Assembly (NCBI GenBank): GCA_947088865.1 | Contig: CAMUHY010000001.1 | Location: 62,001 to 126,000, forward strand | Direction of reading: 5' to 3' | Origin: an uncultured Eubacterium sp. | Lineage (GTDB): Bacteria; Bacillota; Clostridia; Lachnospirales; Lachnospiraceae | Length of the DNA: 64,000 nucleotides | Shown here: one piece after another, positions 12,143-60,097 of the stretch | Layout: every line of letters starts with the position of its first letter | Numbering within the stretch: position 1 is the first letter of the stretch | The notes under the pieces: generated by a model | The model's database searches: none | What the model saw: the letters and a program-made list of their open reading frames with translations, nothing else | What the model was told of the DNA's origin: nothing | Made by a program: the position numbers and the translations under genes

Positions 12143-12234
12143 GTCTGTGCGTTGCCAGACACTATATTCTTTTCACAAAAAACATATCAAGAAAACATTT
12201 ATTGTTTTATCAAAAGCAGCGTAGAAATGGGGGT
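12143..12234 (+). promoter_or_regulatory. Family U 5'-UTR element, copy U1 (plus strand)
   Basis: Hairpin GTCTG-TGCGTTGC-CAGAC at 12143-12160. The conserved 3' block AGCAGCGTAGAAATGGGG lies at 12215-12232, directly before the ATG at 12239. TCTGTGC of the hairpin can pair with GCGTAGA next to the SD (7 pairs with wobbles). This is the only copy on the plus strand, and it serves a plus-strand gene, so orientation follows the gene. Confidence 0.6.
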
Positions 12235-12238
12235 TTTT

Positions 12239-12784
12239 ATGAACGATACAAAACAAACAGAACATATAAAAGACGCGGAAGATGATAAGGCGATTATCCA
12301 TGACTTAACAACTGGAAATAATTACCAAACTTCATCCGCCAAATATCAGGACAACTTGTCTTCTGCCATTACATTTTTTGTATGCGGTGTTGCTGGCTTA
12401 ATTGTAATTCTTCTTAATGTTATTGATGTTTTACACTTTTTTTCCATTAAAACCGCTTCTGGAATCCTTATCTGTGTCGTATTAAGTGCGCTTTTTATAG
12501 CTTTTCTTGTAATTGGTTCTATTACATATAAAAGTGCTTCTAAAGCAAAGTCACAGATTGAATCCGAGCAAAAAATTAATGATGACGTTTCATTATGGTT
12601 AAAAGAAAACCTTACAAAAGAACATATTGACAATTCTTTCGATGATAATGGCATGTCTGAAGAAATGAAATATTTTGATAGAAACAATACCATCGTTACT
12701 GCTATCAAAAAACAATACCCTGAATTAAACGAAGATATTGTTCAATCCATTGCCGATGAATATATACAACTTTTATATAAATAA
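12239..12784 (+). CDS. Small membrane protein of unknown function
   Basis: 181 residues, not recognised. The hydrophilic N terminus (about 1-40) is rich in Asp/Lys/Thr. Two membrane segments follow at about 45-70 (TFFVCGVAGLIVILLNVIDV) and 77-102. The C-terminal cytoplasmic tail is acidic and helical. No signal peptide, so N and C termini are probably on the same side. Start chosen at the ATG 5 bases after GGGGG within a family U element; the open frame continues upstream to 12152 without an SD. Confidence 0.7.
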   Translation: MNDTKQTEHIKDAEDDKAIIHDLTTGNNYQTSSAKYQDNLSSAITFFVCGVAGLIVILLNVIDVLHFFSIKTASGILICVVLSALFIAFLVIGSITYKSASKAKSQIESEQKINDDVSLWLKENLTKEHIDNSFDDNGMSEEMKYFDRNNTIVTAIKKQYPELNEDIVQSIADEYIQLLYK

Positions 12785-12797
12785 TATTTTTACTTGT

Positions 12798-12850
12798 AAA
12801 AAAACAAGGGCTGTCACATTTTTATTCTGATTTTCTTTATGTGACAGCCC
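12798..12850 (-). terminator. Terminator of the ABC exporter operon
   Basis: Perfect 12-bp stem GGGCTGTCACAT/ATGTGACAGCCC with a 19-nt loop, followed on the minus strand by TTGTTTTTTT. It also lies just after the plus-strand gene ending at 12784 but has no T-run on that side. Confidence 0.85.
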
Positions 12851-12884
12851 ACTGGCAAATGCTATAATAGCTATTCTTTTCACC

Positions 12885-13640
12885 TTACAATTCTATTTTT
12901 TTATGAAAATACAAACCTGCAATTACAAACAATGGAATATAAACTAATGATGCCGCAAGACAAACCATAAAGCGATTGTGTTCTACTGTTAAGACGGAAA
13001 GGTCATTTATAAAAGAAGATACCCACAAATTCGCAAAAACAATTTTTTCTGATTTCAAAAAAGAATCCACCAATCCCAAAATCATATTGACAAGCAATGG
13101 TGCAACAAAAACGCCTGCAACTGATGAACCTGTTTTACGAAGAACACAACTTATTGCAAAATATAAACTCATATTTGCCATACAATTTATGTATTGTACT
13201 GCAAGAAGCCCAAAAATATTTGTTCCTTCACTTTCTCCTAAACCAAAGTATATCGTGCCAAAAAAACACGCACTGCACACAACAACAATAAACATTATGG
13301 TTACAGCAATCATACTAGAAATAAACTTTGAGCCATATACTTGAGAGCGTGAATATCCTTTTGAATAAATATTTTTGATGGTTTGCTGCTCATAATCATC
13401 ACAGACAAAAAGTGCAACAAAAATTCCTGCAATTAAAAGAAATGAACAATTCGATATAGCGCTAATCATAGCAACTATTCCAGAACCATTATATTGTGCC
13501 GCAAACTCTGCACTGGTATTACATAACGCTTTTGAAGTAATTGCTGACACAAACAATAAAACCACCATAACAATATTACATATATAAAAACTTTTTTGTT
13601 TTCTTAATTTTCTAAATTCTAATTTTAAAAGTTTTTTCAT
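12885..13640 (-). CDS. ABC-2 type transporter permease
   Basis: 251 residues, about six hydrophobic segments, starting with a basic KLEFRKLRKQKSFYICNI stretch typical of ABC-2/bacitracin-exporter permeases. It ends in HKKIEL. It lies two bases after the ATPase gene. With that ATPase it forms an exporter whose substrate is unknown; BceA-like and lantibiotic-immunity systems have this two-gene layout. Confidence 0.85.
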   Translation of the reverse strand: MKKLLKLEFRKLRKQKSFYICNIVMVVLLFVSAITSKALCNTSAEFAAQYNGSGIVAMISAISNCSFLLIAGIFVALFVCDDYEQQTIKNIYSKGYSRSQVYGSKFISSMIAVTIMFIVVVCSACFFGTIYFGLGESEGTNIFGLLAVQYINCMANMSLYFAISCVLRKTGSSVAGVFVAPLLVNMILGLVDSFLKSEKIVFANLWVSSFINDLSVLTVEHNRFMVCLAASLVYIPLFVIAGLYFHKKIEL

Positions 13641-13642
13641 AT

Positions 13643-14536
13643 TTATTTTCCTATCCTTTCAATAAAAAATTCCTCAAAGCCAATACTTTCATTTTTCATT
13701 TCATATACACGAACCCCTGAATGTACCAATATACGATTTAATTCCGAAGAATCAGTCACTGTTGAGGAAATCATAACCAATTGGTCTGCACATTCTATCT
13801 GTATTGATGGGTCTGCTGTCTTTAAAATCGCCCCTGCTTTTTTTGCATCATCGGTTGCAATAACCAAAGAAGTTCTGCATTTTCTTTGAAGCTGATGTGC
13901 TGTAATTTCTTCAACCAACTGCCCATTATTTACAATTCCATAATTGGTGGCAATCTTCCCAAGCTCATCCAGCAAATGGCTTGATATTAAAAAGGTTACA
14001 CCTTGCTTATTTAACTGCACAATGATATCTCGAATTTCTTTAATTCCAGCAGGGTCTAATCCGTTAATTGGTTCGTCCAAAATCAATATTTCTGGATTGC
14101 CTAGCAAAGCAATGGCAATGCCCAATCGCTGCCTCATTCCAAGTGAAAAAGAACCGCACTTTTTCTTTCCCGTGTTTCCTAACCCTACCAATTGCAAAAT
14201 ATGATTGATTTCTTGATTACGATTTGAACCCGCTAAAATTGAAAATCGTTTCATATTCTCAAAAGCGGTTTCATTTTTATACAGAGCAGGCGCTTCTATC
14301 AAAGAACCTATTTTTTGCCTACCCTCATTTAGATTTTCCTTGTCAAACAATCGAATCATCCCTGAATTTGGCGATGTAAGACCAAGTAATAATTTCATTA
14401 AGCTGGTCTTACCTGCGCCATTTTTACCAATTAATCCATAAATATCTCCTTTTTTTATATGCAGTGACATTTTATTAACTGCAATTTTATCTCCATAATG
14501 TTTATAGAGTTCATTTGTTTCAATGATGTAATCCAT
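13643..14536 (-). CDS. ABC transporter ATP-binding protein
   Basis: 297 residues. Walker A GLIGKNGAGKTSLMK (about 36-50), signature FSLGMRQRLGIA (about 127), Walker B LILDEPINGLDP and the H-loop SSHLL are all intact. The C-terminal about 80 residues form the extra domain seen in the antibiotic-exporter (CcmA/BcrA) group. Start is the ATG after GAGGATAA, inside the 3' end of a family U element; the open frame extends 27 codons upstream because the element is also open in this frame. Energises the permease encoded next. Confidence 0.93.
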   Translation of the reverse strand: MDYIIETNELYKHYGDKIAVNKMSLHIKKGDIYGLIGKNGAGKTSLMKLLLGLTSPNSGMIRLFDKENLNEGRQKIGSLIEAPALYKNETAFENMKRFSILAGSNRNQEINHILQLVGLGNTGKKKCGSFSLGMRQRLGIAIALLGNPEILILDEPINGLDPAGIKEIRDIIVQLNKQGVTFLISSHLLDELGKIATNYGIVNNGQLVEEITAHQLQRKCRTSLVIATDDAKKAGAILKTADPSIQIECADQLVMISSTVTDSSELNRILVHSGVRVYEMKNESIGFEEFFIERIGK

Positions 14537-14539
14537 ATT

Positions 14540-14620
14540 TATCCTCATTTCTGCGCCGCTTTTAAATAAACAATAAAAATTTCTTATAGATTTGTGGCAA
14601 ACAACGCACAGACACAAATC
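14540..14620 (-). promoter_or_regulatory. Family U 5'-UTR element, copy U2
   Basis: Read on the minus strand: hairpin GATTTGTG...CACAAATC (14620-14589) with loop TCTGTGCGTTGTTTGC, a 29-nt A/T-rich spacer, then GCGGCGCAGAAATGAGG (14559-14543), whose GAGG is the SD for the ABC ATPase ATG. Loop TCTGTGC can pair with GCGCAGA (one G-U). Confidence 0.75.
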
Positions 14621-14774
14621 CTACAATTAAAAATACTTGCTATTTATGAGAAACACGTGTATCATATCAAGTGAAACAAATGTATCATATTATCTTTAAT
14701 GAATCAATAGAACTTGAGTGTTAAGAAACAAAAGGCATGAATTGTATCATATAAAGAAAGGAGTAAACTGCACA

Positions 14775-14810
14775 ATGAAATCGGATTTTGCAGTAAATAA
14801 CGATGAATAA
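14775..14810 (+). CDS. Possible 11-codon leader ORF coupled to the tetR gene
   Basis: ATG after AAAGGAG (spacing about 11) opens an 11-codon frame (MKSDFAVNNDE) whose end overlaps the TetR start as ATGAATAA. The TetR ATG has no good SD of its own, so it may be reached by translational reinitiation. Short enough to be chance. Confidence 0.4.
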   Translation: MKSDFAVNNDE

Positions 14811-15300
14811 AAAACAAGAATTAAATATGTTTATCAAAGAATGTATTACCGACGCGCTAATAAAACAAATGAAAATAAAACCGTTCCATGACATTACAAT
14901 TACCGATTTAGTAAAAGTAGCAGGCGTTGGCAGGGTTTCTTTTTATAGAAATTTCAAAAGCAAACAGGATGTATTAGAGAAACATCTCGTTGTACTTATT
15001 GAAGAATGGGGAAAGGATTTTGAAGAACATGGAAAAATGGAATATTTTTCTGAAAGTCTGCTAAACCACTATTATAAATATAAAGATTTTTATTTACTGT
15101 TACACAATCAAGGCTTGTCTAATTTAATTTATGACAATCTGCGCTGTGCATGTAAAATAGATGAATCGTCAAATAATGTGGAACGCTATTCAAAGTCTCT
15201 CGTTGCTGGCAGTATTTATGGCTGGGTTGATGAATGGCTACGTCAAGGAATGAAAGAAACCCCACAAGAAATTATAAAATTAACAGCACCACCGCAATAA
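14803..15300 (+). CDS. TetR/AcrR-family transcriptional regulator
   Basis: 165 residues. The N-terminal helix-turn-helix (ITITDLVKVAGVGRVSFYRNFKSKQDVL, about 30-58) is a typical TetR DNA-binding domain. The C-terminal ligand domain resembles the TetR_C group seen with DhaS-like regulators. It is divergent from the ABC exporter genes, with a 266-base shared region, so it probably represses that exporter and responds to its substrate (inference from layout). Confidence 0.88.
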   Translation: MNKKQELNMFIKECITDALIKQMKIKPFHDITITDLVKVAGVGRVSFYRNFKSKQDVLEKHLVVLIEEWGKDFEEHGKMEYFSESLLNHYYKYKDFYLLLHNQGLSNLIYDNLRCACKIDESSNNVERYSKSLVAGSIYGWVDEWLRQGMKETPQEIIKLTAPPQ

Positions 15301-15309
15301 TCCACTATA

Positions 15310-15389
15310 TACTATGATAAAAAAGAGTATGCTCTAAAACTGCCACTTACAGCAATTTTATAACATACTCTTTTTTATATATCATAGTA
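15310..15389. terminator. Long bidirectional terminator hairpin
   Basis: Arms TACTATGATAAAAAAGAG and CTCTTTTTTATATATCATAGTA (15310-15331 and 15364-15389) form a stem of about 22 bp with an A/T-rich half usable in both directions, between convergent tetR and nfnB. Confidence 0.8.
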
Positions 15390-15445
15390 AAATTTTATAT
15401 ACTATATTAAAACTTCATATATTATAATTAATCTTTATATAATAG

Positions 15446-15485
15446 TTAAGCAGATATTTATAACCTGCTTTACTATTTACTAATC
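15446..15485 (-). repeat. Family D repeat, copy D4 (degenerate)
   Basis: TTAAGCAGATATTTATAACC TGCTT follows the core spacing with both arms changed (AGCAG/CTGCT instead of AGCGG/CCGCT), so pairing is partly kept by paired substitution. Lies just after the nfnB stop codon, in the usual orientation. Confidence 0.5.
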
Positions 15486-15493
15486 GAAATGTT

Positions 15494-16879
15494 TTAATTT
15501 GCACTTAAAAATTCATCAATACCCTTTGCAGCGGATTTTCCAGCTCCCATAGCAAGAATAACCGTAGCTGCTCCTGTAACGGCATCACCGCCTGCATACA
15601 CAGCTTCCTTTGTTGTCTTACCATTTGATTCCTCTGCAACAATACACTTCCATTTATTAATATCCAGTCCTTTTGTTGTTGAGCTGATAAGCGGATTTGG
15701 TGATGTTCCAAGCGACATAATAACAGCATCCAGCTCGATTACAAACTCTGAACCTGCAATTTCAACAGGGCGTCTTCTTCCTGAAGCATCTGGCTCGCCA
15801 AGCTCCATACGAATACATTTCATCCCCTTAACCCAGCCGTTATCGTCTGTAAGAATTTCTAAAGGATTGGTAAGAAGGTCAAAAATAATTCCCTCTTCCT
15901 TTGCATGATGCACTTCCTCCACTCTAGCTGGAAGCTCTGCCTCACTTCTTCTATATACAACATGAACTTCTGCGCCAAGTCTTAAAGCTGTTCTTGCAGC
16001 ATCCATTGCCACATTACCGCCGCCGACAATGGCAACTTTCTTGCATCTTGTAATTGGCGTATCGTATTCATCGTCAAACGCCTTCATCAAATTGCTTCTT
16101 GTAAGGTATTCATTGGCAGAAAATACACCATTAGCATTTTCACCTGGAATACCCATAAATTTTGGCAATCCTGCGCCAGAACCAATAAATACAGCATCAA
16201 AGCCTTCTTCTTCAAGAAGATGGTCAATAGTCATAGACTTACCAATAACAACGTTTGTCTCAATCTTAACGCCAAGACTTTTCACATTTTCGATTTCACT
16301 AGACACAACAGTCTTTTTAGGAAGACGAAATTCTGGAATACCATATACCAAAACGCCGCCTGCCTCATGCAGTGCCTCAAAAATAGTAACATCATATCCC
16401 ATCTTTGCCAAATCACCAGCACATGTAAGACCTGAAGGACCAGAACCGATAACAGCCACTTTTTTGCCCTTCTTTTCTGCCGTTACTTCTGGTTTTAACT
16501 CATGTTCTCTTGCATAATCAGCTACAAATCGCTCAAGCTTGCCAATAGAGATAGGCTCACCCTTAAATCCTCGTATACATTTTCCTTCACACTGGCTCTC
16601 CTGAGGACAGACACGCCCACAGACAGCAGGCAATGCTGAAGACTGGCTTATAATCTTATAAGCTTCTTCAATATCGCCCTCTTTTACTTGATGAATAAAT
16701 GCAGGAATATCAATAGCAACAGGACAGCCAAGAATACATTGTGCATTTTTGCAATTAATGCATCTTGCAGCTTCTTCCTGCGCTTCTTCCATATTATATC
16801 CTAGACAAACTTCCTCAAAATTTTTATTTCTTACGTCAGGAGCCTGCTCTCTGACTGGAACTTTCTTTAAAACATCCAT
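15494..16879 (-). CDS. nfnB: NfnB: NADPH-binding subunit of electron-bifurcating transhydrogenase (GltA-like)
   Basis: 461 residues, GltD/GltA-fold. An N-terminal Fe-S domain (CINCKNAQCILGCPVAIDIP and CGRVCPQESQCEGKC, about 40-105) ligates 4Fe-4S clusters. The FAD motif is GSGPSGLTCAGDLA (about 146), the NADPH motif VGGGNVAMDAARTALR (about 285). Alone it would be annotated glutamate synthase small subunit, but no large subunit is adjacent and the partner at 16901-17782 is NfnA. Together they form NADH-dependent reduced ferredoxin:NADP+ oxidoreductase. Operon with nfnA, 21-base gap. Confidence 0.85.
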   Translation of the reverse strand: MDVLKKVPVREQAPDVRNKNFEEVCLGYNMEEAQEEAARCINCKNAQCILGCPVAIDIPAFIHQVKEGDIEEAYKIISQSSALPAVCGRVCPQESQCEGKCIRGFKGEPISIGKLERFVADYAREHELKPEVTAEKKGKKVAVIGSGPSGLTCAGDLAKMGYDVTIFEALHEAGGVLVYGIPEFRLPKKTVVSSEIENVKSLGVKIETNVVIGKSMTIDHLLEEEGFDAVFIGSGAGLPKFMGIPGENANGVFSANEYLTRSNLMKAFDDEYDTPITRCKKVAIVGGGNVAMDAARTALRLGAEVHVVYRRSEAELPARVEEVHHAKEEGIIFDLLTNPLEILTDDNGWVKGMKCIRMELGEPDASGRRRPVEIAGSEFVIELDAVIMSLGTSPNPLISSTTKGLDINKWKCIVAEESNGKTTKEAVYAGGDAVTGAATVILAMGAGKSAAKGIDEFLSAN

Positions 16880-16900
16880 TTTATGTACTATCCTCCTATT

Positions 16901-17782
16901 TTAATCGCAATTACCGCAACCACCATGATGTGTATCGCCTTCAGTCAATTTCAGCATTGCTCTTCCTTCTTCTGTCTTATACATCTGCTGACGCTTCATT
17001 GCTTGGTCAAAATCAACTTTATGTCCGTCAAACTCTGGTCCATCTACACAGGCAAATTTAATTTCATCTCCGACTTGAAGTCTGCAAGCACCACACATTC
17101 CAGTTCCATCAACCATAATAGGGTTCATGCTGACAACCGTAGGAATCCCTAACTCCTTTGTGAGCAGTGAAACAAACTTCATCATAATCAATGGTCCAAT
17201 TGCAATACATAAATCATATTTCTTGCCTTCATTATTAACCAAGTCTTTTAATACATCGGTTCCCATACCTTTGCGCACATAGCTTCCATCATCCGTAGTA
17301 ACATAGAGATTACCTGCTACTTTGCGCATTTCTTCCTCAAGGATAAGCATATCTTTTGTCTTTGCACCAACAATAACATCAACATCAATCCCTTGCTCAT
17401 GGAGCCATTTTACCTGTGGATATACGGGAGCTGTACCAACGCCGCCTGCAACAAACACAATACTTTTTTTCTTGAGTTCCTCAACACTCTCTGAGATAAG
17501 CTCAGAAGCGCAGCCTAAAGGACCAACAAAGTCTGAAAATGCATCTCCTGTCTTTAATTCAGCCATTCTTGCCGTAGATACACCTACAATCTGAAATACA
17601 ATTGTCACAATGCCTTTTTCTCGGTCATAATCACAAATTGTAAGCGGAATCCTCTCTCCTTTTTCGTCCATCTTAACAATGATGAACTGTCCTGGCTGAC
17701 AGTGTCTTGCTACTCTAGGCGCTTCCACATCCATTAGATAAATCTTATCAGCTAATTTCTCAGATTTTAAAATCTTGTACAT
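16901..17782 (-). CDS. nfnA: NfnA: NAD(H)/FAD and 2Fe-2S subunit of electron-bifurcating transhydrogenase
   Basis: 293 residues, dihydroorotate dehydrogenase electron-transfer subunit fold: an FAD domain (HCQPGQFIIVKMDEKGERIPLT), an NAD domain (VAGGVGTAPVYPQ) and a 2Fe-2S site near the C terminus (CGACRLQ...FACVDG). A further Cys pair ends the protein (GGCGNCD). It receives electrons from NADH and bifurcates with NfnB. Adjacency to nfnB is the main reason to prefer NfnA over PyrK. Confidence 0.87.
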   Translation of the reverse strand: MYKILKSEKLADKIYLMDVEAPRVARHCQPGQFIIVKMDEKGERIPLTICDYDREKGIVTIVFQIVGVSTARMAELKTGDAFSDFVGPLGCASELISESVEELKKKSIVFVAGGVGTAPVYPQVKWLHEQGIDVDVIVGAKTKDMLILEEEMRKVAGNLYVTTDDGSYVRKGMGTDVLKDLVNNEGKKYDLCIAIGPLIMMKFVSLLTKELGIPTVVSMNPIMVDGTGMCGACRLQVGDEIKFACVDGPEFDGHKVDFDQAMKRQQMYKTEEGRAMLKLTEGDTHHGGCGNCD

Positions 17783-17813
17783 TTACTATACCCCTTTCAT
17801 ATTAATGAAATAA

Positions 17814-19421
17814 TTAATATACAACGGCTGATAGCAAGCCTTCGGAATCTGTCACTTTATAACACTGCCCATTGCTTACTCCAACACCGTAATATCCCTC
17901 TACTTTTGAGCCGCTTATGCCCTTTTTGTCAAGTCTTATATAGTACATCTGTATACCGCTAATTTCTTTTTTTGTCTGATACACAAAATCTGCCGTTTCT
18001 CCGCCAACTGAAAACTTGCCATTGCTGCCAATAATATTAAGCTCCTGCATACGCTTTTTTAAAAAATTTAACGCTTCATTATATGTATACTCTGTCTTAT
18101 CCTTGACTGTTATATTCTTTCTTGTCACTGTGCTTGATAGATTATGTTTGCTAATCACTATAACGGATAATACATATCTTCCTTCTTCTAACTCAATGCC
18201 ATCATTATATGGCAAAGAATATGTTGATGGCGTTGTTCCATCTATCGTATAATATGCCTTATCCCCTTCCAAAAGATTTTTAATTTTAATCTTTGTTCCC
18301 AATTCAACATTGGTATCTTCAATATCCAAAACGGGTGCTTCTGGTGCCTTTAAATCAATTGTAAACTTAAATTCCCCCACTTCAGACTTTACACCAATCT
18401 CGTTGACCGCAATTGCCTTTACTGTCACCGTATCCTTTTCAATTTTAATTGAATCGGTAAATCGAATACTATTATTCGTTGGCGTACTTCCATCCACCGT
18501 ATAATAAATTGCACAGTCATCTTGTGCAAGAAGCATCAATTCAATCGCCTCACTAAAATCGCCTGGATTTTCTGATGTTGTAGGAACAGCGACGATATAT
18601 TCACTTAATATATTTTTTATCTTAGAATCTTTGTATTCCTCTATAATTTTATTAATTTTATCACCCTTCTTATTATCATAACACAATCTAAGAAGTGATG
18701 ATAAAGTTTTATCATTTAATTTATTGTATGCTAAAGCTGTCTCCAATATCTCAATAGCTTTATCCGCATTTCCTGTATTTTTATATGCTTCTGATAAGGT
18801 ATACATCATATCAAGATTTTTTTTGCCTTCTGTCGAATCAAAAGCAACTTCAAGATGTTTGATAGCATCTACATAATTATTTTCTTTATATAAAGTCATA
18901 CCCATTTCATAATTGTAATGATAACTATTTTTTTTGTTATTATGTACCACAACTGCAACGATAATGCCAATGATTAATATCGCTGCAACAGCGCCGCCTA
19001 CCAATGCGATTATTATTTTATTTCGTTTACTCAATCCTGTTGTATGATTGTCATTATGTTTATTGCTATTATTATTCTTCTTATTATTATTTTCTCTATT
19101 TGTATTTATACTATTGCCATTTGTACTATTATTGTTTGCAATATTATTACCATTTGCACTGTTATTACTTATAATATTATTTGTATTGTCATTATTCACT
19201 GTCATTACAACTTTAGCGTTAATGGAATCTGTATCAATAAAACGAGTAGCTCCTAAATCAATACCAATCTCCGTTGTATCCCCAAACTTATCATATGCTG
19301 TATTATTTTGCTCCAAATTATTGCCAACAGAAGCTTTTGCTACATTTGTTTCTTCTTCTACAAGACGTTGTAGTGATTTCGTCATTTCTTCGTCTATATC
19401 TAAATTATCCTTTTCTTCCAC
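17814..19421 (-). CDS. TPR membrane protein with chitobiase-C-terminal-like repeats
   Basis: About 535 residues. An acidic cytoplasmic N terminus, an Asn-rich low-complexity stretch (about 75-125), one membrane segment (IIIALVGGAVAAILIIGIIV, about 138-160), then TPR-like helices (about 170-260). Two beta domains with YYTVDGSTPT and YYTIDGTTPS follow, the signature of chitobiase/Fn3-associated domains, and a C-terminal alpha/beta domain. Likely a surface-exposed binding protein. Start is uncertain: a GTG at 19421 is 5 bases after GAGGTGG, while an in-frame GTG at 19430 lies inside that SD. It precedes no obvious partner. Confidence 0.75.
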   Translation of the reverse strand: MEEKDNLDIDEEMTKSLQRLVEEETNVAKASVGNNLEQNNTAYDKFGDTTEIGIDLGATRFIDTDSINAKVVMTVNNDNTNNIISNNSANGNNIANNNSTNGNSINTNRENNNKKNNNSNKHNDNHTTGLSKRNKIIIALVGGAVAAILIIGIIVAVVVHNNKKNSYHYNYEMGMTLYKENNYVDAIKHLEVAFDSTEGKKNLDMMYTLSEAYKNTGNADKAIEILETALAYNKLNDKTLSSLLRLCYDNKKGDKINKIIEEYKDSKIKNILSEYIVAVPTTSENPGDFSEAIELMLLAQDDCAIYYTVDGSTPTNNSIRFTDSIKIEKDTVTVKAIAVNEIGVKSEVGEFKFTIDLKAPEAPVLDIEDTNVELGTKIKIKNLLEGDKAYYTIDGTTPSTYSLPYNDGIELEEGRYVLSVIVISKHNLSSTVTRKNITVKDKTEYTYNEALNFLKKRMQELNIIGSNGKFSVGGETADFVYQTKKEISGIQMYYIRLDKKGISGSKVEGYYGVGVSNGQCYKVTDSEGLLSAVVY

Positions 19422-19539
19422 TACATCCACCTCTTTAATATCATTATATAAGCTATTTTATAATAGCACATTGTTATATTATTGTCAAAACATGTTTTGA
19501 TTTTCCATATTTTCCCTAAATCCAACCAAAAATAAACCG

Positions 19540-19585: not shown

Positions 19586-19627
19586 TTACAGGCACCATCC
19601 ATTATAAACTTTGCCTATTTAAATCAT

Positions 19628-35393: not shown

Positions 35394-35396
35394 TTT

Positions 35397-35475
35397 TACC
35401 TCATTTCTGCGCCGCTTTTTATTCAAAGAATAAAATATTCCTCATCATTTGTGTCAAGCAACGCGCAGGCACAAA
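35397..35475 (-). promoter_or_regulatory. Family U 5'-UTR element, copy U3
   Basis: Minus strand: hairpin TTTGTG...CACAAA (35475-35448) with CCTGCGCGTTGC in the loop, then GCGGCGCAGAAATGAGG (35415-35399), 5 bases before the HIT ATG. Loop CTGCGC can pair with GCGCAG. The element starts one base after the pnp stop codon, so it fills the whole intergenic gap. Confidence 0.75.
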
Positions 35476-35476
35476 C

Positions 35477-46507: not shown

Positions 46508-46510
46508 AAT

Positions 46511-46560
46511 CCCTCTATTCTGCACTGCTTTTATATCGTAAAAATATAGCAGCGCAACGT
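46511..46560 (-). promoter_or_regulatory. Family U 5'-UTR element, copy U4 (degenerate)
   Basis: Minus strand: GCAGTGCAGAATAGAGG (46528-46512) directly before the rimP ATG. Upstream TTGCGCTGC (46557-46549) can pair with GCAGTGCAG over 9 positions (two G-U). The outer TTTGTG/CACAAA arms are not recognisable here. Confidence 0.5.
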
Positions 46561-52033: not shown

Positions 52034-52048
52034 TTTCAATCTATTTTC

Positions 52049-52750: not shown

Positions 52751-52781
52751 GCATGTGAGCTTGGCTTCGTTGCTCGCAGGA

Positions 52782-52834
52782 ATAAAAAAGAATGTCTCTC
52801 TATGATAGTTGCAATCATTACTTTGAGACATTCT
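52782..52834 (-). terminator. Terminator after the cytidylate-kinase-like gene
   Basis: AGAATGTCTC/GAGACATTCT stem with an ATGAT/ATCAT extension inside the loop, then TTTTTTATT on the minus strand. Confidence 0.85.
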
Positions 52835-52850
52835 CACAAATGTTATCAAT

Positions 52851-53873
52851 TTATTCGTTTTCTTTATGAATAATTCGTTTTATCAATTCAACCGATTCTT
52901 CAATTCCATAACGCGCGCTATTGATACATAAGTCGTAATTTGCCGCGCTTCCCCACTGTTTTCCTGTATAAAACCGATAAAAACGCTCTCTTGAATGGTC
53001 TCTTCTTACCATTCGCTTACTGGCATCCTTAAAGCTCATTTTTTCAAGCTCCATAATTCGTCGAATACGCTGTCCTAATGGAGCTGTGATAAATACGCTG
53101 ATATGTGGAATGTGATTATTGGTAAGAACCACATCGGCACATCGACCTATAACAATAAAATCCTGCTCTTTTGCCAATTGACAGAGCAGCTCACTCTCAT
53201 TAAAAAACATCGCATCCTTTTTTGATAAACCATGATATCGGCTAAATTCCCGCACCTTTGCATTGACTTTAGCATTGTGAAGGGCAACCTTTTTACTCAC
53301 CCATTTTTCATCTTTTTCTTTATCCATATGTTCCAAAACTTGCCCAAAAACTTCTGCATCATAATAATTAATTCTTAATTCATCTGCCAGTGCAAATCCA
53401 ATATCGGTGCCAGCGCTTCCTTCTGTTCTGCTGATACAGATAACTAAATGGTCATCTTTTGAACGTTTGCCATTATTGTTAAAATGATTCATACCTGCAA
53501 AATTTTTGTCAAGTATATCAACCGAACCAAAACTTGACGGTATCTTTTCAATCTCATGGAGAATTTCATTGTATTCTCTCATCAGCATACTTCTTTTTTC
53601 TTTGTCTTTAACGGTTCTTGCCATATTGCCTATAAGGGCAATTTCACTTCTAAGCTTATATCCTTGTGGATGTGTTGACATCAGCTCTACAAGTCCATTG
53701 ATACTTTTTTTCTCATCACCTGAAAAAGTACGCCCCAGTGAAGAACCCACAAGCTCATACACTTTTGTATCCAACGCATAAATTCGTATTGCAAGCTCCG
53801 TCAAGTTTCCATAGCTGACCTTATCTTCATTTTTATTATCTTCACTTTGAACATCCATATTTTTATTTTTCAT
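52851..53873 (-). CDS. Cytidylate kinase-like protein (Cytidylate_kin2)
   Basis: 340 residues. The N-terminal about 130 residues are helical, of unknown role. The C-terminal domain starts with a P-loop variant, ISRTEGSAGTDIGFALAD, and contains FIVIGRCADVVL and the RMVRRDHSRERFYRFYTG lid region, as in the Cytidylate_kin2 family common in clostridia. Substrate is not established. N terminus acidic and Lys-rich. Confidence 0.85.
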   Translation of the reverse strand: MKNKNMDVQSEDNKNEDKVSYGNLTELAIRIYALDTKVYELVGSSLGRTFSGDEKKSINGLVELMSTHPQGYKLRSEIALIGNMARTVKDKEKRSMLMREYNEILHEIEKIPSSFGSVDILDKNFAGMNHFNNNGKRSKDDHLVICISRTEGSAGTDIGFALADELRINYYDAEVFGQVLEHMDKEKDEKWVSKKVALHNAKVNAKVREFSRYHGLSKKDAMFFNESELLCQLAKEQDFIVIGRCADVVLTNNHIPHISVFITAPLGQRIRRIMELEKMSFKDASKRMVRRDHSRERFYRFYTGKQWGSAANYDLCINSARYGIEESVELIKRIIHKENE

Positions 53874-53912
53874 TCTATCAAAACCATGCCTTTCTATTTT
53901 GCATATATCTGC

Positions 53913-55268
53913 CTATAAGAAAAATAGTAGTGTATCAAGTAAGAATACGGGAACAAGAAAGCCTACCGACCATATGATGTAACCAAAAAACGAAGGCATC
54001 CGAATACCATTTTCATCTGAAATTGATTTTACCATAAAGTTCGGTGCATTGCCAATATAGGTGCCTGCTCCCATAAACACAGCCCCACATGAAACAGCAG
54101 TAAGCACCTTCGTTGAAATTATGCCAACTGATGTACTGACACCGCTTGTAAAGCCAAGTGTTCCAGCCGTTGTAAGAAATACTAAATAGGTCGGTGTATT
54201 ATCTAAAAAGCTTGACAGCGCACCTGTTGCCCAAAACATTTGATAAGGCTGCGTTATGCCAAGACTTGCTCCATTTGCTTTTAGAATCATAAGCGCTGGC
54301 TGCATTGTAATAAATATACCGACAAACAAAACGGCAACTTCTTGAATTGCTCCCCAAGTAAAGTGGTTTTTTGTCCGAATTTCAGATTTTGTTGTCTTAA
54401 AGGACAGAAAGGCTGCCAACAAGATAATAGCCATCTCAATAATAGAGACAAAGGAAAGCGTCACTTCCCCTATAATATGTATTCCAAGCGCGCCGCCTTC
54501 GCTATTTTGAAATGCAGGCAAGGTTGGAAGTACACCGCTTAAAACAACAGCTCCCACAATCATTATAATAAATAAAATATTATGTCCACCCTCAAATTTA
54601 ATTTCTGTTCCAGCTTTGCTGATATCTGGTCTATGTCCCTTTGCTATATCTTTTCTGTAAGCTTTTCTATCTAAAAAATAAAATATCGTTAAAAGAATCA
54701 CCATATTAAAAAGTAATATTGGAAACAAGCTTAAACTCCAAGTAAAAGGAACGCCTCTCATAAATCCCATCAACAGAGGCGGGTCGCCAATTGGTGTAAG
54801 ACAGCCGCCCATATTGGATACAAGAAAAATAAAAAATATCATAATATGATTTTTACGTTTTCTCCATGAATTCATCTTAATAATAGGGCGAACAAGCAGC
54901 ATACTTGCACCTGTTGTTCCTATACAGCTTGATAAAAGCGTGCCGATAAGCAGCAGCCCTGTATTGACACGCGGAGAACCGACTAAATCGCCCTCCAGCG
55001 TAATATTGCCTGCCACACAAAACAATCCAAACAATAATACAATAAATGTTAAATAATCATTTATAATACACTCCAACACCGTCTCAGATGCTGTATATGC
55101 TCCATATTTTACTGCAAAGGGAATAATAAATAACAATGACCAAAATAAAACGGCATATGGTCTGTTTTTTTCCCACCACTCTCCTTTAATAATAGGAAGA
55201 ACTGCAATACAAAGCAGCAATCCAGCAAATGGAATACATAACCACAACGGAATCATTTTTTTAACCAT
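53913..55268 (-). CDS. NhaD/ArsB-like ion transporter (putative Na+/H+ antiporter)
   Basis: 451 residues, about eleven hydrophobic segments. Ion-transporter superfamily features: SNMGGCLTPIGDPPLLMGF and the mirrored FMGAGTYIGNAPNFMVKSI, plus LDNTPTYLVFL. These are shared by NhaD Na+/H+ antiporters and related carboxylate or arsenite permeases (COG1055). An Na+ role would suit an organism with a decarboxylase Na+ pump, but substrate is inference. Confidence 0.82.
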   Translation of the reverse strand: MVKKMIPLWLCIPFAGLLLCIAVLPIIKGEWWEKNRPYAVLFWSLLFIIPFAVKYGAYTASETVLECIINDYLTFIVLLFGLFCVAGNITLEGDLVGSPRVNTGLLLIGTLLSSCIGTTGASMLLVRPIIKMNSWRKRKNHIMIFFIFLVSNMGGCLTPIGDPPLLMGFMRGVPFTWSLSLFPILLFNMVILLTIFYFLDRKAYRKDIAKGHRPDISKAGTEIKFEGGHNILFIIMIVGAVVLSGVLPTLPAFQNSEGGALGIHIIGEVTLSFVSIIEMAIILLAAFLSFKTTKSEIRTKNHFTWGAIQEVAVLFVGIFITMQPALMILKANGASLGITQPYQMFWATGALSSFLDNTPTYLVFLTTAGTLGFTSGVSTSVGIISTKVLTAVSCGAVFMGAGTYIGNAPNFMVKSISDENGIRMPSFFGYIIWSVGFLVPVFLLDTLLFFL

Positions 55269-55289
55269 GCCTTTCTTTTAATGATAAGT

Positions 55290-55320
55290 AAAGCCCTTTA
55301 TGCCAAATAAAAAGGGCTTT
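55290..55320. terminator. Hairpin between DUF6465 and transporter genes
   Basis: AAAGCCCTTT/AAAGGGCTTT, 10-bp stem, 11-nt loop, 21 bases before the transporter start codon. No clear T-run on the minus strand. Confidence 0.5.
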
Positions 55321-55343
55321 GCAATGCAATAGCCCCATTATAA

Positions 55344-55494
55344 TTAAGCGGATATTCGTAATCCGCTTTGCTACTTACTCATAACCTCATTCCACTTCGT
55401 GGTGTTTTGACAGAAGATTAAACTTCTGCCAAAACATGGAAGTCTAATTCTCGCTTAAAAAGCTCAAGTTAGACTTCCATAATGAGGTTAAAAT
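55344..55494 (-). repeat. Family D repeat, copy D6 (longest)
   Basis: Core AGCGGATATTCGTAATCCGC, then a CCAC/GTGG hairpin, TTTTGACAGAAG/CTTCTGCCAAAA and a 12-bp ATGGAAGTCTAA/TTAGACTTCCAT stem. It is enclosed by AACCTCATT/AATGAGGTT. The left-pointing end TTTTAACCTCAT contains the TAA stop codon of the DUF6465 gene. The most complete example of core plus variable hairpins. Confidence 0.75.
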
Positions 55495-55868
55495 AATTCA
55501 ACTTTTCCAGATATATCATCATTAGCAACATAGTAGCAAGCATTGTCCTCTGGCTTAAAATATAATGTCAGCTCCTTAATTGTCACTTCCTGTTTTTTGC
55601 ACTCTTCCTCAACTTTTTGAACAATCAATTCCTCATCAATTTGTTTACCGTCAAATTCAATAAACATCTTTCTTGTTATATCGGATTCTTTTATATCCGT
55701 ATTTTTTGCAGTTGACTCTTTTTTACTCGTTGACTTTTTTCCAGTAGTTTTCTTCTCTGTTGCCTTTTTAGCTGTTGTCTTTTTTGCAGCAGGCTTCTTT
55801 GTTTCCTTTTTTTCTTCAACAACTTCACTTACGTTCAATGTGCTATCAACAACTTCATTGTTTTCCAT
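55488..55868 (-). CDS. DUF6465 family protein, Lys-rich
   Basis: 126 residues. The N-terminal half is a Lys/Thr/Ala-rich, histone-like repeat (AAKKTTAKKATEKKTTGKK, about 28-60), probably nucleic-acid binding or disordered. The C-terminal half is a small domain (FIEFDGKQIDEELIVQKV...LYFKPEDNACYYVANDDISGKVELF) found in many Lachnospiraceae proteins. Function unknown. Start after AGGAGG. Its stop codon lies in repeat D6. Confidence 0.75.
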   Translation of the reverse strand: MENNEVVDSTLNVSEVVEEKKETKKPAAKKTTAKKATEKKTTGKKSTSKKESTAKNTDIKESDITRKMFIEFDGKQIDEELIVQKVEEECKKQEVTIKELTLYFKPEDNACYYVANDDISGKVELF

Positions 55869-55911
55869 TAAATTAATCCTCCTGAATTTAAACAATCTTT
55901 GTATCTTTTCA

Positions 55912-56163
55912 TTATGTACAAGATAAAAACTTTTGTATTGCTTCTATTGCTGCCGTCTCATCTGTACCTTCCACAGATACTTCAATTTCCATGCCTTCTC
56001 TAAGTCCAAATGCCATCATGCCCATTAAGCTTTTTGCATTGATAAATTTTCCATCTGTCTGCACTGTAATATGACTTTCAAACTTACATGCTGTCTGCAC
56101 TAATTCTGCCACAGGATTATTGTATGCTTTATCAATGTTTGCTACAACTACCGATTGTACCAT
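55912..56163 (-). CDS. HPr-family protein lacking the catalytic His (Crh-like)
   Basis: 83 residues with the HPr fold; NAKSLMGMM (42-50) keeps the regulatory serine region (Ser-45, equivalent to HPr Ser-46). The active-site GLHARP of HPr is replaced by KAYNNP (12-17), so both the phosphorylated His and the neighbouring Arg are absent. It cannot carry PTS phosphate but could be phosphorylated on Ser and act with CcpA, as Crh does. Another HPr presumably exists outside the window. Confidence 0.85.
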   Translation of the reverse strand: MVQSVVVANIDKAYNNPVAELVQTACKFESHITVQTDGKFINAKSLMGMMAFGLREGMEIEVSVEGTDETAAIEAIQKFLSCT

Positions 56164-56379
56164 GCTTACTTCACCTTAACCTTTAATTAAAATTAAACAC
56201 TTCAGCTACACTCTGCAAGTCAACTTTTGTTACTGATGTTTATAAAAGATTTATAAATTCTTTCAACGCAAGTTACTATACCCCAAAACATTTATAAAGT
56301 CAACACCATATTTTTTATTTACTTATTTTTATATAATCATCCATGTATTGCTGAGTGTAAAACATTAAGGCTTTGATAT

Positions 56380-57168
56380 TTACATCTGTTCTTTAAATTC
56401 TCTAATATACTTTTTGACAGCATCCATTGAATAGTTGCTTGAACGCAATAATTTTATAAAATGTGAACCGACAATTGCACCGTCAATAATATCTTTTACC
56501 GATTCAATATCTTTTGGTGTTTTAATGCCAAATCCCATCATAACAGGCACAGGACTTACCTCTTTAACATGGGTGAGATATTCTCTTATATTCTTATGAA
56601 AATCAGCTGTTCCTCCTGTTACACCCATCTGTGAAATACAGTAGACAAATCCTTTTGCATTGTTTACAAGCGCTGGAATCCTCTCCTTTGAAACAGGGGA
56701 TATCAGCTGTAACAATATCGTTGCATCCTTTGTTTTTTCTATATAAGACTGCAATTCACTTTGCTCTTCATATGGCAAATCCGGAATAATCACACCGTCA
56801 ACGCCGCACGCTACACACTGTTTCACAAATTCTTCTAACCCATAATGAAAAACGGTATTATAGTACATCATAAACACAACTGGCGTCTCCAAACCTTTTG
56901 AGCGAACATTTTTCATTAATTCAAAAATTTTTTCTAATGTAGCGCCATTTAAAATAGCCTCATAGGATGCATCTTGAATCACGGGACCGTCTGCCACAGG
57001 GTCTGAAAATGGCACGCCAATTTCCATTACATCAATGCCTGCTTCCTCTTGTGCAAACATAATTTTTTCTGTTGTCTCCATATCTGGCAATCCTGCTGTT
57101 GTGTAGGTAATAAAAGCCTTTTTGTCCGTATCTTTTAATACGCGCATTTTTTCGTCTATTCGATTCAT
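56380..57168 (-). CDS. trpA: Tryptophan synthase alpha chain
   Basis: 262 residues: MEIGVPFSDPVADGPVIQ holds the catalytic Glu, FMMYYN, DLPYEE (catalytic Asp) and VGSHFIKLL follow. Splits indole-3-glycerol phosphate to indole. Overlaps the trpB stop by one base (TAATG), so translationally coupled. Last gene of the trp operon. No clear terminator seen in the 216 bases before the HPr gene end. Confidence 0.97.
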   Translation of the reverse strand: MNRIDEKMRVLKDTDKKAFITYTTAGLPDMETTEKIMFAQEEAGIDVMEIGVPFSDPVADGPVIQDASYEAILNGATLEKIFELMKNVRSKGLETPVVFMMYYNTVFHYGLEEFVKQCVACGVDGVIIPDLPYEEQSELQSYIEKTKDATILLQLISPVSKERIPALVNNAKGFVYCISQMGVTGGTADFHKNIREYLTHVKEVSPVPVMMGFGIKTPKDIESVKDIIDGAIVGSHFIKLLRSSNYSMDAVKKYIREFKEQM

Positions 57169-58364
57169 TATTTATTCGTCTCCTCTCCATTCATATATTT
57201 TGCAACGGTATCAACATCTTTGTCACCGCGCCCAGAAAGACACATTACAATCGTTTTTCCTTTATATTCATTTTGTGCCATCTTAAATACATACGCCATT
57301 GCATGTGCGCTCTCAATTGCTGGAATAATGCCTTCCAGTCTGCATAATTCCATCAGTGCGTCCATACACTCCTTATCTGTAATAGACACATAGGTTGCTC
57401 TTTTTGTATCGCGAAGATAAGCGTGTTCTGGTCCGACACCTGGATAATCCAGTCCTGCTGAAATCGAATGTGCCAATTGTATATTTCCATCATCATCCTG
57501 CAAAAGATACGTTTTCATTCCATGCAGTACGCCAACCTGCCCCAATGCCATAGCCGATGCATGTTTTCCAGTCTCAATGCCAAGTCCCCCTGCCTCAACG
57601 CCAATCAAATCAACATCTTTTTCATCAATAAAATCGGCAAACATACCAATGGAATTAGAACCACCGCCCACACAGGCAACAACGGCATCTGGCAATTTTC
57701 CTTCTTTTTCTAGTATCTGCCTTTTGGTCTCGGTTGAGATAATACGCTGAAATTCTTTGACAATCTTAGGATATGGGTATGGACCAACCGCTGAACCAAG
57801 CACATAAAATGTATCTTCTGCTCGCTCTGCCCACGTTCTTATCGCCTCATTGGTGGCATCTTTTAGTGTTGCACTTCCTGTTTTTACCGGTGAAACGGTT
57901 GCGCCAAGCATCTGCATACGAAACACATTTAATTTTTGTCGTTCAATATCTTCCGTCCCCATATAAATGGTGCATTCCATATTAAACAAAGCAGCGCCTG
58001 TCGCTGTTGCAACGCCATGCTGTCCGGCTCCTGTCTCTGCAATAATCTTTGTCTTGCCCATTCTTTTTGCCAGCAAAATCTGTCCTATTACGTTGTTAAT
58101 CTTATGCGCTCCTGTATGGTTTAAATCTTCTCTTTTTAGATAAATGGTAGCGCCATATTTTTCACTCAGTCTCTTTGCATAATACAACGGTGTCTCTCTT
58201 CCCACATACTCTTTTAGATAATACATATACTCATTGATAAAATTAGGGTCGCTAATAGCCTCATCAAACGCCTTCTCTAATTCTTCCAACGTGTTCATCA
58301 GCGATTCTGCTACATATTGTCCGCCAAACTCGCCAAAATATTTGTTTTCTCTGTTCTTACTCAT
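57168..58364 (-). CDS. trpB: Tryptophan synthase beta chain
   Basis: 398 residues: PLP Lys-88 in [20 protein letters not shown], and the phosphate-binding GGGSN. TrpB1 type. Joins indole and serine. Start preceded by a family U element whose GAGG is the SD. Confidence 0.98.
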
Positions 58365-58367
58365 TTT

Positions 58368-58432
58368 TTCCTCATTTCTGCGCTGAGCTAAAAGTTTTTA
58401 TAAGTTTGTGTCAAGCAGCGCGCAAACACAAA
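58368..58432 (-). promoter_or_regulatory. Family U 5'-UTR element, copy U5 (trpB)
   Basis: Hairpin TTTGTGT...ACACAAA (58432-58405) with loop TTGCGCGCTGCTTG, then CTCAGCGCAGAAATGAGG (58387-58370), 5 bases before the ATG. Pairing can use TTTGCGC/GCGCAGA or GCGCTG/CAGCGC. Confidence 0.75.
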
Positions 58433-58456
58433 TCTTGTGGTTGAAAATTTTAATTT

Positions 58457-59179
58457 TCAACCTTTTCCCTCCATTTGAACTGTTTTTATAAAATCCTCTA
58501 TTCGCTTTTTATCTTTGCCAATTCGGTCAGGCTGATTTTCATATTCAATCCCTGAGCTTACATCAACTACATCCGGCGCGATAAGGCGAATTGCGTTTGC
58601 CACATTTTCTGCTTTTAAACCGCCTGCAAGAAAGACTTTTTTTCCTTCCTTTGCTGCCATTTGTCGCGCCTTGCAAATAATATTCCATGAAAAAGTCTCA
58701 CCGCTTCCAGACGTTCCCGAATCAAAAAGTACTCCATAAATTCTGTCAGATTTTATAATAATATCTAAATCACAATAAAACGTTTTGTTTAATTTCTCTA
58801 TATTTTCACCTTTATCTCTCATGTTAAGGAATTGTTCTGTTTCTTTGTCAAACGATTTACTGTTTATATTAACGGCCCATATGATAGGAATGGTGCTGTT
58901 TGAAATTACTTCTTTATCCCACTCGCCATGTATCTGAACATAATCAAATCCAATTGTCTCTATATCCTTTATCTGCTGTATGGTTGGGGATACCACAACC
59001 GCAACTTTCTTGATATTGCCATCTAATTGTGCAAGTATCTCTTTTGCCCAATCAAGTGATATATTTCTTTTACTTTTTGGATAATACAAAACACAGCCTA
59101 TATAATCGGGCTTATATTGATTGATAATCGTTACATCTTCCATTGATGTAATGCCGCATATTTTAATCTGTGTACCCAT
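58457..59179 (-). CDS. trpF: Phosphoribosylanthranilate isomerase
   Basis: 240 residues: KICGITSMEDV, YVQIHG, LFDSGTSGSGETFSW and FLAGGLKAENV, DVSSGIE. Converts PRA to CdRP. Longer than typical TrpF (about 205), with an extra segment around 105-150. ATG after AATGAGG of a family U element; a 32-codon extension is element sequence and should not be included. Confidence 0.95.
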   Translation of the reverse strand: MGTQIKICGITSMEDVTIINQYKPDYIGCVLYYPKSKRNISLDWAKEILAQLDGNIKKVAVVVSPTIQQIKDIETIGFDYVQIHGEWDKEVISNSTIPIIWAVNINSKSFDKETEQFLNMRDKGENIEKLNKTFYCDLDIIIKSDRIYGVLFDSGTSGSGETFSWNIICKARQMAAKEGKKVFLAGGLKAENVANAIRLIAPDVVDVSSGIEYENQPDRIGKDKKRIEDFIKTVQMEGKG

Positions 59180-59182
59180 AAT

Positions 59183-59248
59183 AAACCTCATTTCTGCGCT
59201 GCTTTTTGCGCATAAACAACTTTGTGTCAAGCAATGCGCAGACACAAA
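59183..59248 (-). promoter_or_regulatory. Family U 5'-UTR element, copy U6 (trpF)
   Basis: Hairpin TTTGTGTC...GACACAAA type (59248-59221) with loop CTGCGCATTGCTTG, then GCAGCGCAGAAATGAGG (59202-59186). TCTGCGC/GCGCAGA pairs perfectly over 7 bp. Confidence 0.78.
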
Positions 59249-59290
59249 TTGTGGTGTGAAAAATTTATTTTTCACACTAAACCTCCGCTC

Positions 59291-60064
59291 TTACCCTATC
59301 TGTTTCCATCTTAAAGCAAGCGCTTTAGGGTCGTCGGCTTCCATCAAAGCCGTTCCAATCAGCAATGCATCGACATGACTTTCTTTTAAAATTTTTATAT
59401 CCTCATCATGTAACACGCCGCTTTCCGATACAAGTACCGTATCTTTAACCATAGCTGCCAGCCTTTTTGTTGTATCTAAAGCCACCTCAAACGTCTTTAA
59501 ATTGCGGTTATTAATGCCTATAATTTTAACACCGAACTGTATCATACGATTTAATTCCCATTCGTCATGTACCTCACACAATACGTCAAGCCCTAACTGG
59601 TACGCCAAATCATATAATTTCTTAAATGTCGCATCATCTAAAATAGCTGCAATCAACAAAATAGCATCGGCTTCTATCACTTTTGCCTCATATACTTGAT
59701 ATTCTGTAAAGATAAAATCTTTTCTTATAATAGGAAGACTAGTCATTGTTCTTATCTGTTTTAGATAATCAACACTGCCATTAAAGTAATCTTCTTCCGT
59801 CAAACACGATATAGCATCAACGGCTTCATTATAGCAATCAATTCTTTTTATAAGGTCTATCTTATTTGCCATTGTTCCATGACTTGGCGATGCCTTTTTA
59901 AATTCGCCAATAATAGAAAGCCCTTTCTTTTTCAGTGCATCGTAAAAACTTACAGATACCCTATCCGACTTCAGCGCTTCCTTTTTCATATCTTCCAGAC
60001 TGATATGTTTTATCTGTTCTTCCAGTCTGATTTTTTTTGCTTTTACTATATCATCTAAAATCAT
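59291..60064 (-). CDS. trpC: Indole-3-glycerol phosphate synthase
   Basis: 257 residues: IGEFKKASPSHG, IIRKDFIFTEYQVYEA, GINNRNLKTFEVAL, LVSESG and LIGTALM cover the barrel's catalytic Lys, Glu and phosphate residues. Closes CdRP to indole-3-glycerol phosphate. ATG after AATGAGG of a family U element; ten upstream codons are element sequence. Confidence 0.97.
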   Translation of the reverse strand: MILDDIVKAKKIRLEEQIKHISLEDMKKEALKSDRVSVSFYDALKKKGLSIIGEFKKASPSHGTMANKIDLIKRIDCYNEAVDAISCLTEEDYFNGSVDYLKQIRTMTSLPIIRKDFIFTEYQVYEAKVIEADAILLIAAILDDATFKKLYDLAYQLGLDVLCEVHDEWELNRMIQFGVKIIGINNRNLKTFEVALDTTKRLAAMVKDTVLVSESGVLHDEDIKILKESHVDALLIGTALMEADDPKALALRWKQIG

Positions 60065-60067
60065 ACA

Positions 60068-60097
60068 TTTCCTCATTTCTGTGCCGCTTAGCACAAA
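60068..60097 (-). promoter_or_regulatory. Family U 5'-UTR element, copy U7 (trpC, short form)
   Basis: GCGGCACAGAAATGAGG (60087-60071) lies before the trpC ATG. GCACAGA differs by one base from the usual GCGCAGA, and its partner TTTGTGC (60097-60091) carries the matching change, so a 7-bp hairpin is kept. The outer hairpin is missing. Confidence 0.6.

Follow-up and report, generated by a model that had tools for sequence, protein, structure and literature searches.

A small, probably mobile element that carries a Shine–Dalgarno sequence and a predicted pseudoknot to the start codons of unrelated genes in a Lachnospiraceae genome

We analysed a window of 64,000 bases (bases 62001–126000 of contig C1) in the genome of an uncultured Eubacterium sp. 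of the Lachnospiraceae (3,294,346 bases, 3.29 Mb), in which a short repeat, here called family U, precedes genes of unrelated function. An original prediction, made from the letters of the window, had described seven copies and read them either as a mobile element exporting a start of translation or as a shared translational control RNA. Our results favour the first alternative, in view of an empty site in close relatives and of copies nested in one another. The repeat is probably a small, non-autonomous mobile element. It would insert between a gene's Shine–Dalgarno sequence (SD) and its start codon and supply a new start made of a pseudoknot and an SD.

Results

Seven copies in the window

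All seven noted copies are present, and each ends directly 5' of a start codon. The copies and their parts are listed below; each copy has a conserved block, given here also with the spacer that follows it.

12142–12238, plus strand: copy before the gene of a 181-amino-acid protein; hairpin 12142–12161 (TGTCTG/CAGACA), block 12216–12232, block with spacer 12216–12238; covariance-model match with E 7.9e-6
14537–14620, minus strand: copy before the ABC ATPase gene; hairpin B 14589–14620, block 14543–14559, block with spacer 14537–14559
35394–35476, minus strand: copy before the HIT gene; hairpin B 35447–35476, block 35399–35415, block with spacer 35394–35415
46508–46558, minus strand: reduced copy before rimP, in which GCGCTGC pairs directly with GCAGTGC in a single simple hairpin (by eye); block with spacer 46508–46528
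58365–58462, minus strand: full-length copy before trpB, with a hairpin A of type GGTTGAAAAT; block with spacer 58365–58386
58404–58434, minus strand: hairpin B of the trpB copy
58439–58462, minus strand: 5' hairpin A of the trpB copy
58463–58476, minus strand: older SD-like GGAGG 5' of the trpB copy
59180–59277, minus strand: full-length copy before trpF, from the left end of the element to the last base before ATG; block with spacer 59180–59202
59186–59202, minus strand: 3' strand of the proposed pseudoknot of the trpF copy plus AGAAATGAGG, including the SD
59221–59248, minus strand: hairpin B of the trpF copy, with a loop complementary to the block 5' of the SD
59254–59277, minus strand: 5' hairpin A of the trpF copy, an inverted repeat GTGTGAAAAAT..ATTTTTCACAC
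59278–59291, minus strand: older SD-like GGAGG with the spacer TTTA, 5' of the trpF copy
60065–60097, minus strand: reduced copy before trpC, consisting of the block and a short local hairpin at 60080–60095 (by eye); block with spacer 60065–60087

An upstream hairpin with a TGCGCGTTGC-like loop occurs in the five copies at 12143, 14540, 35397, 58368 and 59183, in agreement with the original prediction, and the stem at 12143 is TGTCTG/CAGACA, unlike the TTTGTG/CACAAA of the predicted pattern. The assignment of GAGG as the SD holds in general, with exceptions at 12143 (GGGG) and 46511 (AATAGAGG). Three features are absent from the original prediction: the pairing of the block with the hairpin loop and, in the two full-length copies, hairpin A and the SD-like stretch on its 5' side. 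Pfam searches with the downstream proteins returned ABC_tran, HIT, RimP, PALP (trpB-like), PRAI (trpF) and IGPS (trpC), which bears out six of the seven gene identities that had been proposed; the seventh, a membrane protein, found no confirmation, as the 181-amino-acid protein behind the copy at 12143 matches no Pfam family at 1e-5. The pseudoknot of the trpF copy contains one A–C mismatch in the 7-base-pair (bp) register, and CTGCGC/GCGCAG does pair (by eye). The reduced rimP and trpC copies fall outside the 142 covariance-model matches described below. A T-box leader (RF00230, 104.7 bits) lies at window positions 62361–62647 on the minus strand, the same strand as the trp genes that bear three of the copies and on their upstream side.

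Copies across the genome and their position

The pattern GGCGCAGAAATGAGG has 56 matches in the whole genome with at most one mismatch, compared to 0 for the reversed pattern, and AGAAATGAGG has 149 matches compared to 7 for a control pattern. We inspected 46 copies and aligned 32 of them (alignment A1) to build a covariance model, R1. A search of the same genome with R1 gave at least 142 matches at E ≤ 1, of which 125 have E ≤ 0.01; the figure of 142 is a lower bound because 150 of the 7166 first-pass candidates were scored. For all 142 matches we asked where the next open frame begins, requiring at least 60 amino acids, or at least 40 if the frame runs off the stretch. Its start codon lies 3–15 nucleotides (nt) downstream in 132 of the 142 matches and 4–10 nt downstream in 128, most commonly at 6 nt (75 matches) or 5 nt (25 matches). 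Random positions in the window (n = 8000) pass the narrower rule in 498 cases (6.2%) and the wider one in 882. Ranked by covariance-model score, the matches obey the 4–10 nt rule in 49 of the first 50, 45 of the next 50 and 34 of the last 42. Tens of copies close to start codons, which the original prediction had named as a sign of support, are thus found. Of the genes behind them, nine of nine proteins tested from this genome scored above the NCBIfam cut-offs, as recA, metK, glmS, rplT, coaD, radA, yajC, hisC and ornithine carbamoyltransferase.

The same position is seen elsewhere. Among 118 listed pattern matches outside this genome, comprising at least 117 from a contig scan of other genomes and one from a viral contig, 111 sit 3–10 nt before a long or cut-off frame. 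The end sequence GCGCAGAAATGAGG also precedes start codons in genomes of other genera and, in one case, of a different family (L058, L060 and L057; genomes G042, G029 and G066), with no visible hairpin B; these sites are perhaps remnants, or perhaps a general SD context.

Anatomy and predicted RNA fold

Elements of family U are about 65–100 nt long. From 5' to 3', the full-length form begins behind an SD-like stretch, belonging to the gene or to an older element, and consists of an AT-rich hairpin A, a hairpin B (typically TTTGTG..CACAAA), an AU-rich linker, a strand that can pair with the loop of hairpin B, and the block AGAAATGAGG or AATGGAGG with a fresh SD, followed usually by 5–6 nt and the start codon. 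The complementarity between the loop of hairpin B and the block 5' of the SD corresponds to a predicted H-type pseudoknot, whose 3' strand ends about 4–6 nt before the SD.

Covariation, also named there as a sign of support, is found in both the hairpin and the pseudoknot. In alignment A1 the proposed 7-bp pseudoknot helix is paired in 96.6% of cells and two pairs are changed on both sides; in the copy C1:220490, for example, GCGCAG is replaced by GCGTAG and the loop G by A. In hairpin B both sides are changed at six of ten pairs, and 83.3% of cells are paired (60 sequences). A hairpin B was found in 87 of the 118 matches from other genomes. In these 87 the loop pairs with its own strand over 7.48 nt on average, compared to 6.51 nt when partners are swapped (maximum of 300 shuffles 6.84) and 4.12 nt when the loop letters are shuffled; 14 of the 87 pair over less than 6 nt. 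The pairing versions in other genomes include CTGCGCTGC/GCAGCGCAG (12 exact copies), CTGCGCGGC/GCCGCGCAG (6), CTGCGCAGC/GCTGCGCAG (2) and TGCGCAC/GTGCGCA (2). The corresponding test in the window's own genome covered 119 of the 142 matches, 114 of them with a hairpin. Here 55 diverged copies average 5.71 nt with their own partner, 5.24 with swapped partners and 4.19 with shuffled loops, and 29 of the 55 reach at least 6 bp; their versions include TACACTGC/GTAGTGTA and GCGATGT/GCATCGC.

We rejected a known RNA family as an identity of the element. At the gathering score, Rfam 15 finds a T-box and tRNA alone in the window, and at permissive settings a single stretch of the window and four loci yielded three sub-threshold matches only.

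Family V and further types

Some U copies are preceded by a stretch ending in GCTTCGGAATGGAGG. This 14-mer has 34 matches in the genome with at most one mismatch, compared to 2 for the control, and belongs to a second, longer family, V (loci L199–L228, e.g. L212 and L214). Full V copies share the left end GTGTGAAAAATAA and have a hairpin with the loop CCGAAGCGT, a longer linker, and ACGCTTCGG followed by AATGGAGG and the start codon. Among the 29 of 34 matches that were examined, a strict pattern recognises the hairpin in 13; loop and strand pair over at least 7 nt in 12 of these 13 and over at least 9 nt in 10. An open frame lies behind 27 of the 29 V copies, and where a nested element stands behind a V copy the frame begins in that element. 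U and V therefore have a common architecture and left end with different pseudoknot sequences. Further types with the GTGTGAAAAATAA left end terminate in AAGAATGGRG (L231, L245 and L448) or in another ending (L447); these four loci precede genes that, judged by reading, resemble ilvN, murG and a P-type ATPase.

Near-identical copies, nesting and empty sites

Five 65-nt bodies of family U are identical and 15 bodies average 96.8% identity, compared to 29.6% over the 40 nt further upstream. Copies are also nested. A U copy follows the 3' end of a V copy at L203, L206, L211, L215 and L222, a V copy follows a U copy at L212, L213 and L434, and a V copy follows another at L214/L227; the frame detected behind the match at L434 begins within the inserted V element. 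In genome G018, U copies lie behind or inside other U copies (L115 and L093). The later element adjoins the start codon in each case except L093, where it lies inside the linker of another element, before an internal ATG.

The clearest empty site is found at a cytidylate-kinase-like gene (PF13189). Of four close relatives, genomes G002 and G012 read ..AAAATTAGGAGGYGTTAAAC-ATG, and in G017 and G019 an element stands between the GGAGG and the ATG of the same gene, whose proteins are 96% identical to the G019 query. The native spacer is kept on neither side, and either the empty or the filled state may be the older one. At the trp loci, 18 relatives of the same genus show no element pattern (17 trpB starts and 16 trpF starts examined), and the trpF element in particular was not seen in the 16 relatives.

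The distribution is patchy. In the genus, 22 genomes including this one have between 0 and 125 copies at E ≤ 0.01, with 12 of them at 0. In a family scan with model R2 (E ≤ 1e-4, best 32 candidates per genome, strict filters), at least 20 of 160 sampled Lachnospiraceae genomes match, and in a sample of the class at least 3 of 291 match (best 17 candidates per genome), both counts again including this genome. Genome G471 is among those rich in copies, with 20 matches and 9 contigs. For the stretches of the contig scan, at least 117, the 80 record titles covered include Lachnospiraceae, Lachnospira, Roseburia, Acetatifactor, Lachnoclostridium and Parablautia. A search of plasmids gave no match. 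Twelve gut-virome contigs match at about 78–83% identity. In three of them (L450–L452: MT836618, MT836374 and MT838294) the genes look bacterial, which is why we do not call the element phage-borne, and the element again stands before an ATG; these contigs are probably bacterial DNA among phage records. Mobility of the element is well supported by these comparisons. Anatomy, position, pseudoknot covariation, spread, nesting and empty sites are all apparent at the level of sequence.

The insertion site and the search for a mover

A pattern search gave 62 full-length candidates, of which at least two are doubtful. As a raw count, 50 of the 62 have an SD-like stretch no more than 16 nt upstream of the left end. 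Of 54 copies that could be tested, 11 have left and right spacers in agreement over at least 4 nt, compared to 2.5 after shuffling, and none of 10000 shuffles reached 11. The agreement is present in the genome of the window (6 of 24, compared to 2.2) and in other genomes (5 of 30, compared to 1.2). This hints that the SD and spacer form the target and are duplicated on insertion. By eye, no terminal inverted repeats are seen: the left end GTGTGAAAAAT.. does not recur in inverted form at the right end ..GCGCAGAAATGAGG(ATTTTT). In many full-length copies (59180–59277, L066, L067 and L434) a GTG behind the old SD opens a frame that crosses the element and enters the gene, whose N-terminus it would extend.

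The genome has four matches to the Y1 transposase family (PF01797), two of them with an internal stop. Genome G004 has 25 copies and no Y1 match, at 72% completeness. Elsewhere, every GTGTGAAAAATAA site seen belonged to a U or V copy.

Discussion

The element would enter a leader between SD and start codon, oriented like the gene, and replace the translation start of that gene. Ribosomes would then initiate from the SD that the element brings; we infer its use because it stands mostly 5–6 nt from the start codon, while the old SD lies about 100 nt upstream in full-length copies. Service to translation is the likeliest role of the pseudoknot, which may pack the leader compactly beside the SD and prevent it from interfering, so that initiation continues. 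Initiation kept in this way could make an insertion tolerable even before recA, metK, glmS or rplT. The mover would be an enzyme acting in trans and, by appearance, its target would be the SD–spacer itself. A stronger claim is that the element targets the ribosome binding site as such, brings a copy of the SD, keeps the spacing and acts as a portable, pseudoknot-controlled start that by stacking has rewritten more than 100 gene starts; to judge from the sequences, we regard this claim as evenly balanced.

One would expect small repeats at places where the damage is smallest. The present one lies between SD and start codon, among the most sensitive stretches of a gene. If the proposal is true, translation starts in a major gut family have been replaced repeatedly by a mobile RNA module, and the type of element could tune or couple translation across a genome. 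It would also provide natural modular parts made of a pseudoknot and an SD, and raises the question of which enzyme can aim at ribosome binding sites.

Several observations weigh against a mobile element that provides a translation start. A gene-like frame is absent behind 10 of the 142 matches, and the 4–10 nt spacing falls to 34 in the weakest 42. Only 27 of the 142 have a left end that can be recognised within 65 nt, which slightly lowers our confidence; as most matches are not full-length, their mobility is inferred from the family. Left and right spacers disagree in most copies, young ones included. Two of the four Y1 loci were inspected and have no U or V ends, and no copy encloses a transposase or another gene among those inspected, namely 30 of the 44 GTGTGAAAAATAA sites and four further stretches, mostly over about 200 nt each. 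Regarding the fold, the 44 best copies of the window's genome (G000) pair over 7.09 nt with their own partner and 6.95 with swapped partners (maximum 7.09), values that hardly differ because the copies are nearly identical, and in the 55 diverged copies the best of 500 shuffles also reached 5.71. The predicted unpaired value of the SD is 0.533 compared to 0.465 with a shuffled upstream sequence, and is higher in 35 of 52 copies; it is 0.491 when the pseudoknot strand is barred from local pairing. Folding thus lends modest support to a pseudoknot that keeps the leader off the SD, and the slight rise in exposure falls short of a strong SD-presenting effect.

A possible, though distinctly less probable, account is a purely selfish repeat of the kind represented by miniature inverted-repeat transposable elements (MITEs) or palindrome-associated transposable elements (PATEs). 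The hairpins and pseudoknot would then be folded DNA for a transposase, the 3' SD would be a copy of the target, and translation would merely be left unspoilt. Nesting, identical bodies and the patchy distribution agree with it, as do spacers that match beyond chance (for example TTTA/TTTATT in the trpF copy and one V copy) and a hairpin A that coincides with the left end and that most matches do not have (left end in 27 of 142). What speaks for a use after insertion is that the diverged copies, most of them with no recognised hairpin A, can in many cases still form the pseudoknot (29 of 55 with at least 6 bp). This pairing may reflect selection in place, or the diverged copies may come from other subfamilies.

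Coupling through a leader peptide is an unlikely explanation. The old SD would drive translation from a GTG or TTG at the left end of hairpin A, and translation of a short peptide through the element would open the pseudoknot and couple the new SD, with some frames entering the gene. An SD-like stretch does stand 4–9 nt before the GTG/TTG codon in 50 of the 62 full-length candidates, and in most 101-nt copies of G000 the frame continues without a stop across the element and into the gene. The frequency of GTG/TTG itself is no evidence, because the codon is built into the search pattern. Other hairpin-A types have no GTG/TTG (L092 and L094), and frames and lengths vary between subfamilies.

Less likely again is a shared translational control RNA, similar to a riboswitch or a ribosomal-protein leader and inherited with its genes without being mobile. 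A pseudoknot beside the SD is the layout of the preQ1 and SAM-V translational riboswitches, and a local hairpin ATGCGC/GCGCAG could, by eye, compete with the pseudoknot for one of its strands. However, the named genes belong to unlike pathways, no ligand or protein is indicated, the trp loci of the 18 relatives are without the element, copies nest and are near-identical in unrelated places, and Rfam gives no match. The empty sites largely refute it when it is taken as the only account; since the pseudoknot is kept, a control function may be an addition to the mobile element. Finally, a chance likeness of strong SD regions, to which the nearness of AGAAATGAGG to the canonical extended SD might point, has a negligible probability and was rejected on the pattern controls (56 vs 0 and 149 vs 7), the common hairpins and the identical bodies; further members exist, and copies are not equally frequent away from start codons.

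Comparison with known systems

An abstract-level search of the literature found no earlier description of such an element, and an earlier mention is possible. The preQ1 and SAM-V translational riboswitches are H-type pseudoknots in which a 5' hairpin loop is paired to sequence at or close to the SD. In family U the paired strand stops about 4–6 nt before the SD, the genes are unrelated, the copies are mobile and no ligand core was recognised. Non-autonomous elements of the IS200/IS605 type (PATEs and REPINs) have hairpin ends, no terminal inverted repeats and an oriented insertion at a short target, and HEARO RNAs lie just before ATGA or GTGA. U and V differ from these in that no Y1 partner with their ends was found at the two loci inspected (no TnpB/IscB search was made), that they are far shorter than HEARO, and that they carry an SD. 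As in MITEs, the copies are near-identical, and orthologous sites (the cytidylate-kinase-like gene and the trp loci) are filled in some genomes and empty in others.

Short, dispersed and structured repeats of comparable size are also found in Streptococcus pneumoniae. PMC3049150 gives 125 BOX, 110 RUP and 30 SPRITE repeats in one genome, strong predicted RNA structure and transcription of BOX. According to the same text, terminal inverted repeats and duplicated targets are features of BOX and RUP, and BOX, RUP and SPRITE alike are overrepresented between convergent genes. U and V, by contrast, have no visible terminal inverted repeat, lie directly before start codons in the direction of the gene, and carry an SD and a covarying pseudoknot.

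Also close are the TAACTGA repeats of marine Beggiatoaceae, none of which was seen by eye in the 46 copies inspected. In PMC4679880 these repeats are placed mostly several nucleotides upstream of putative start codons, with no pattern in gene function and with some presumably essential genes among those that follow; a translational role is suggested, and the distribution is taken to suggest horizontal transfer. The same paper describes them as direct repeats of a heptamer in a setting where canonical ribosome binding sites are rare, whereas U and V supply an SD together with their predicted pseudoknot.

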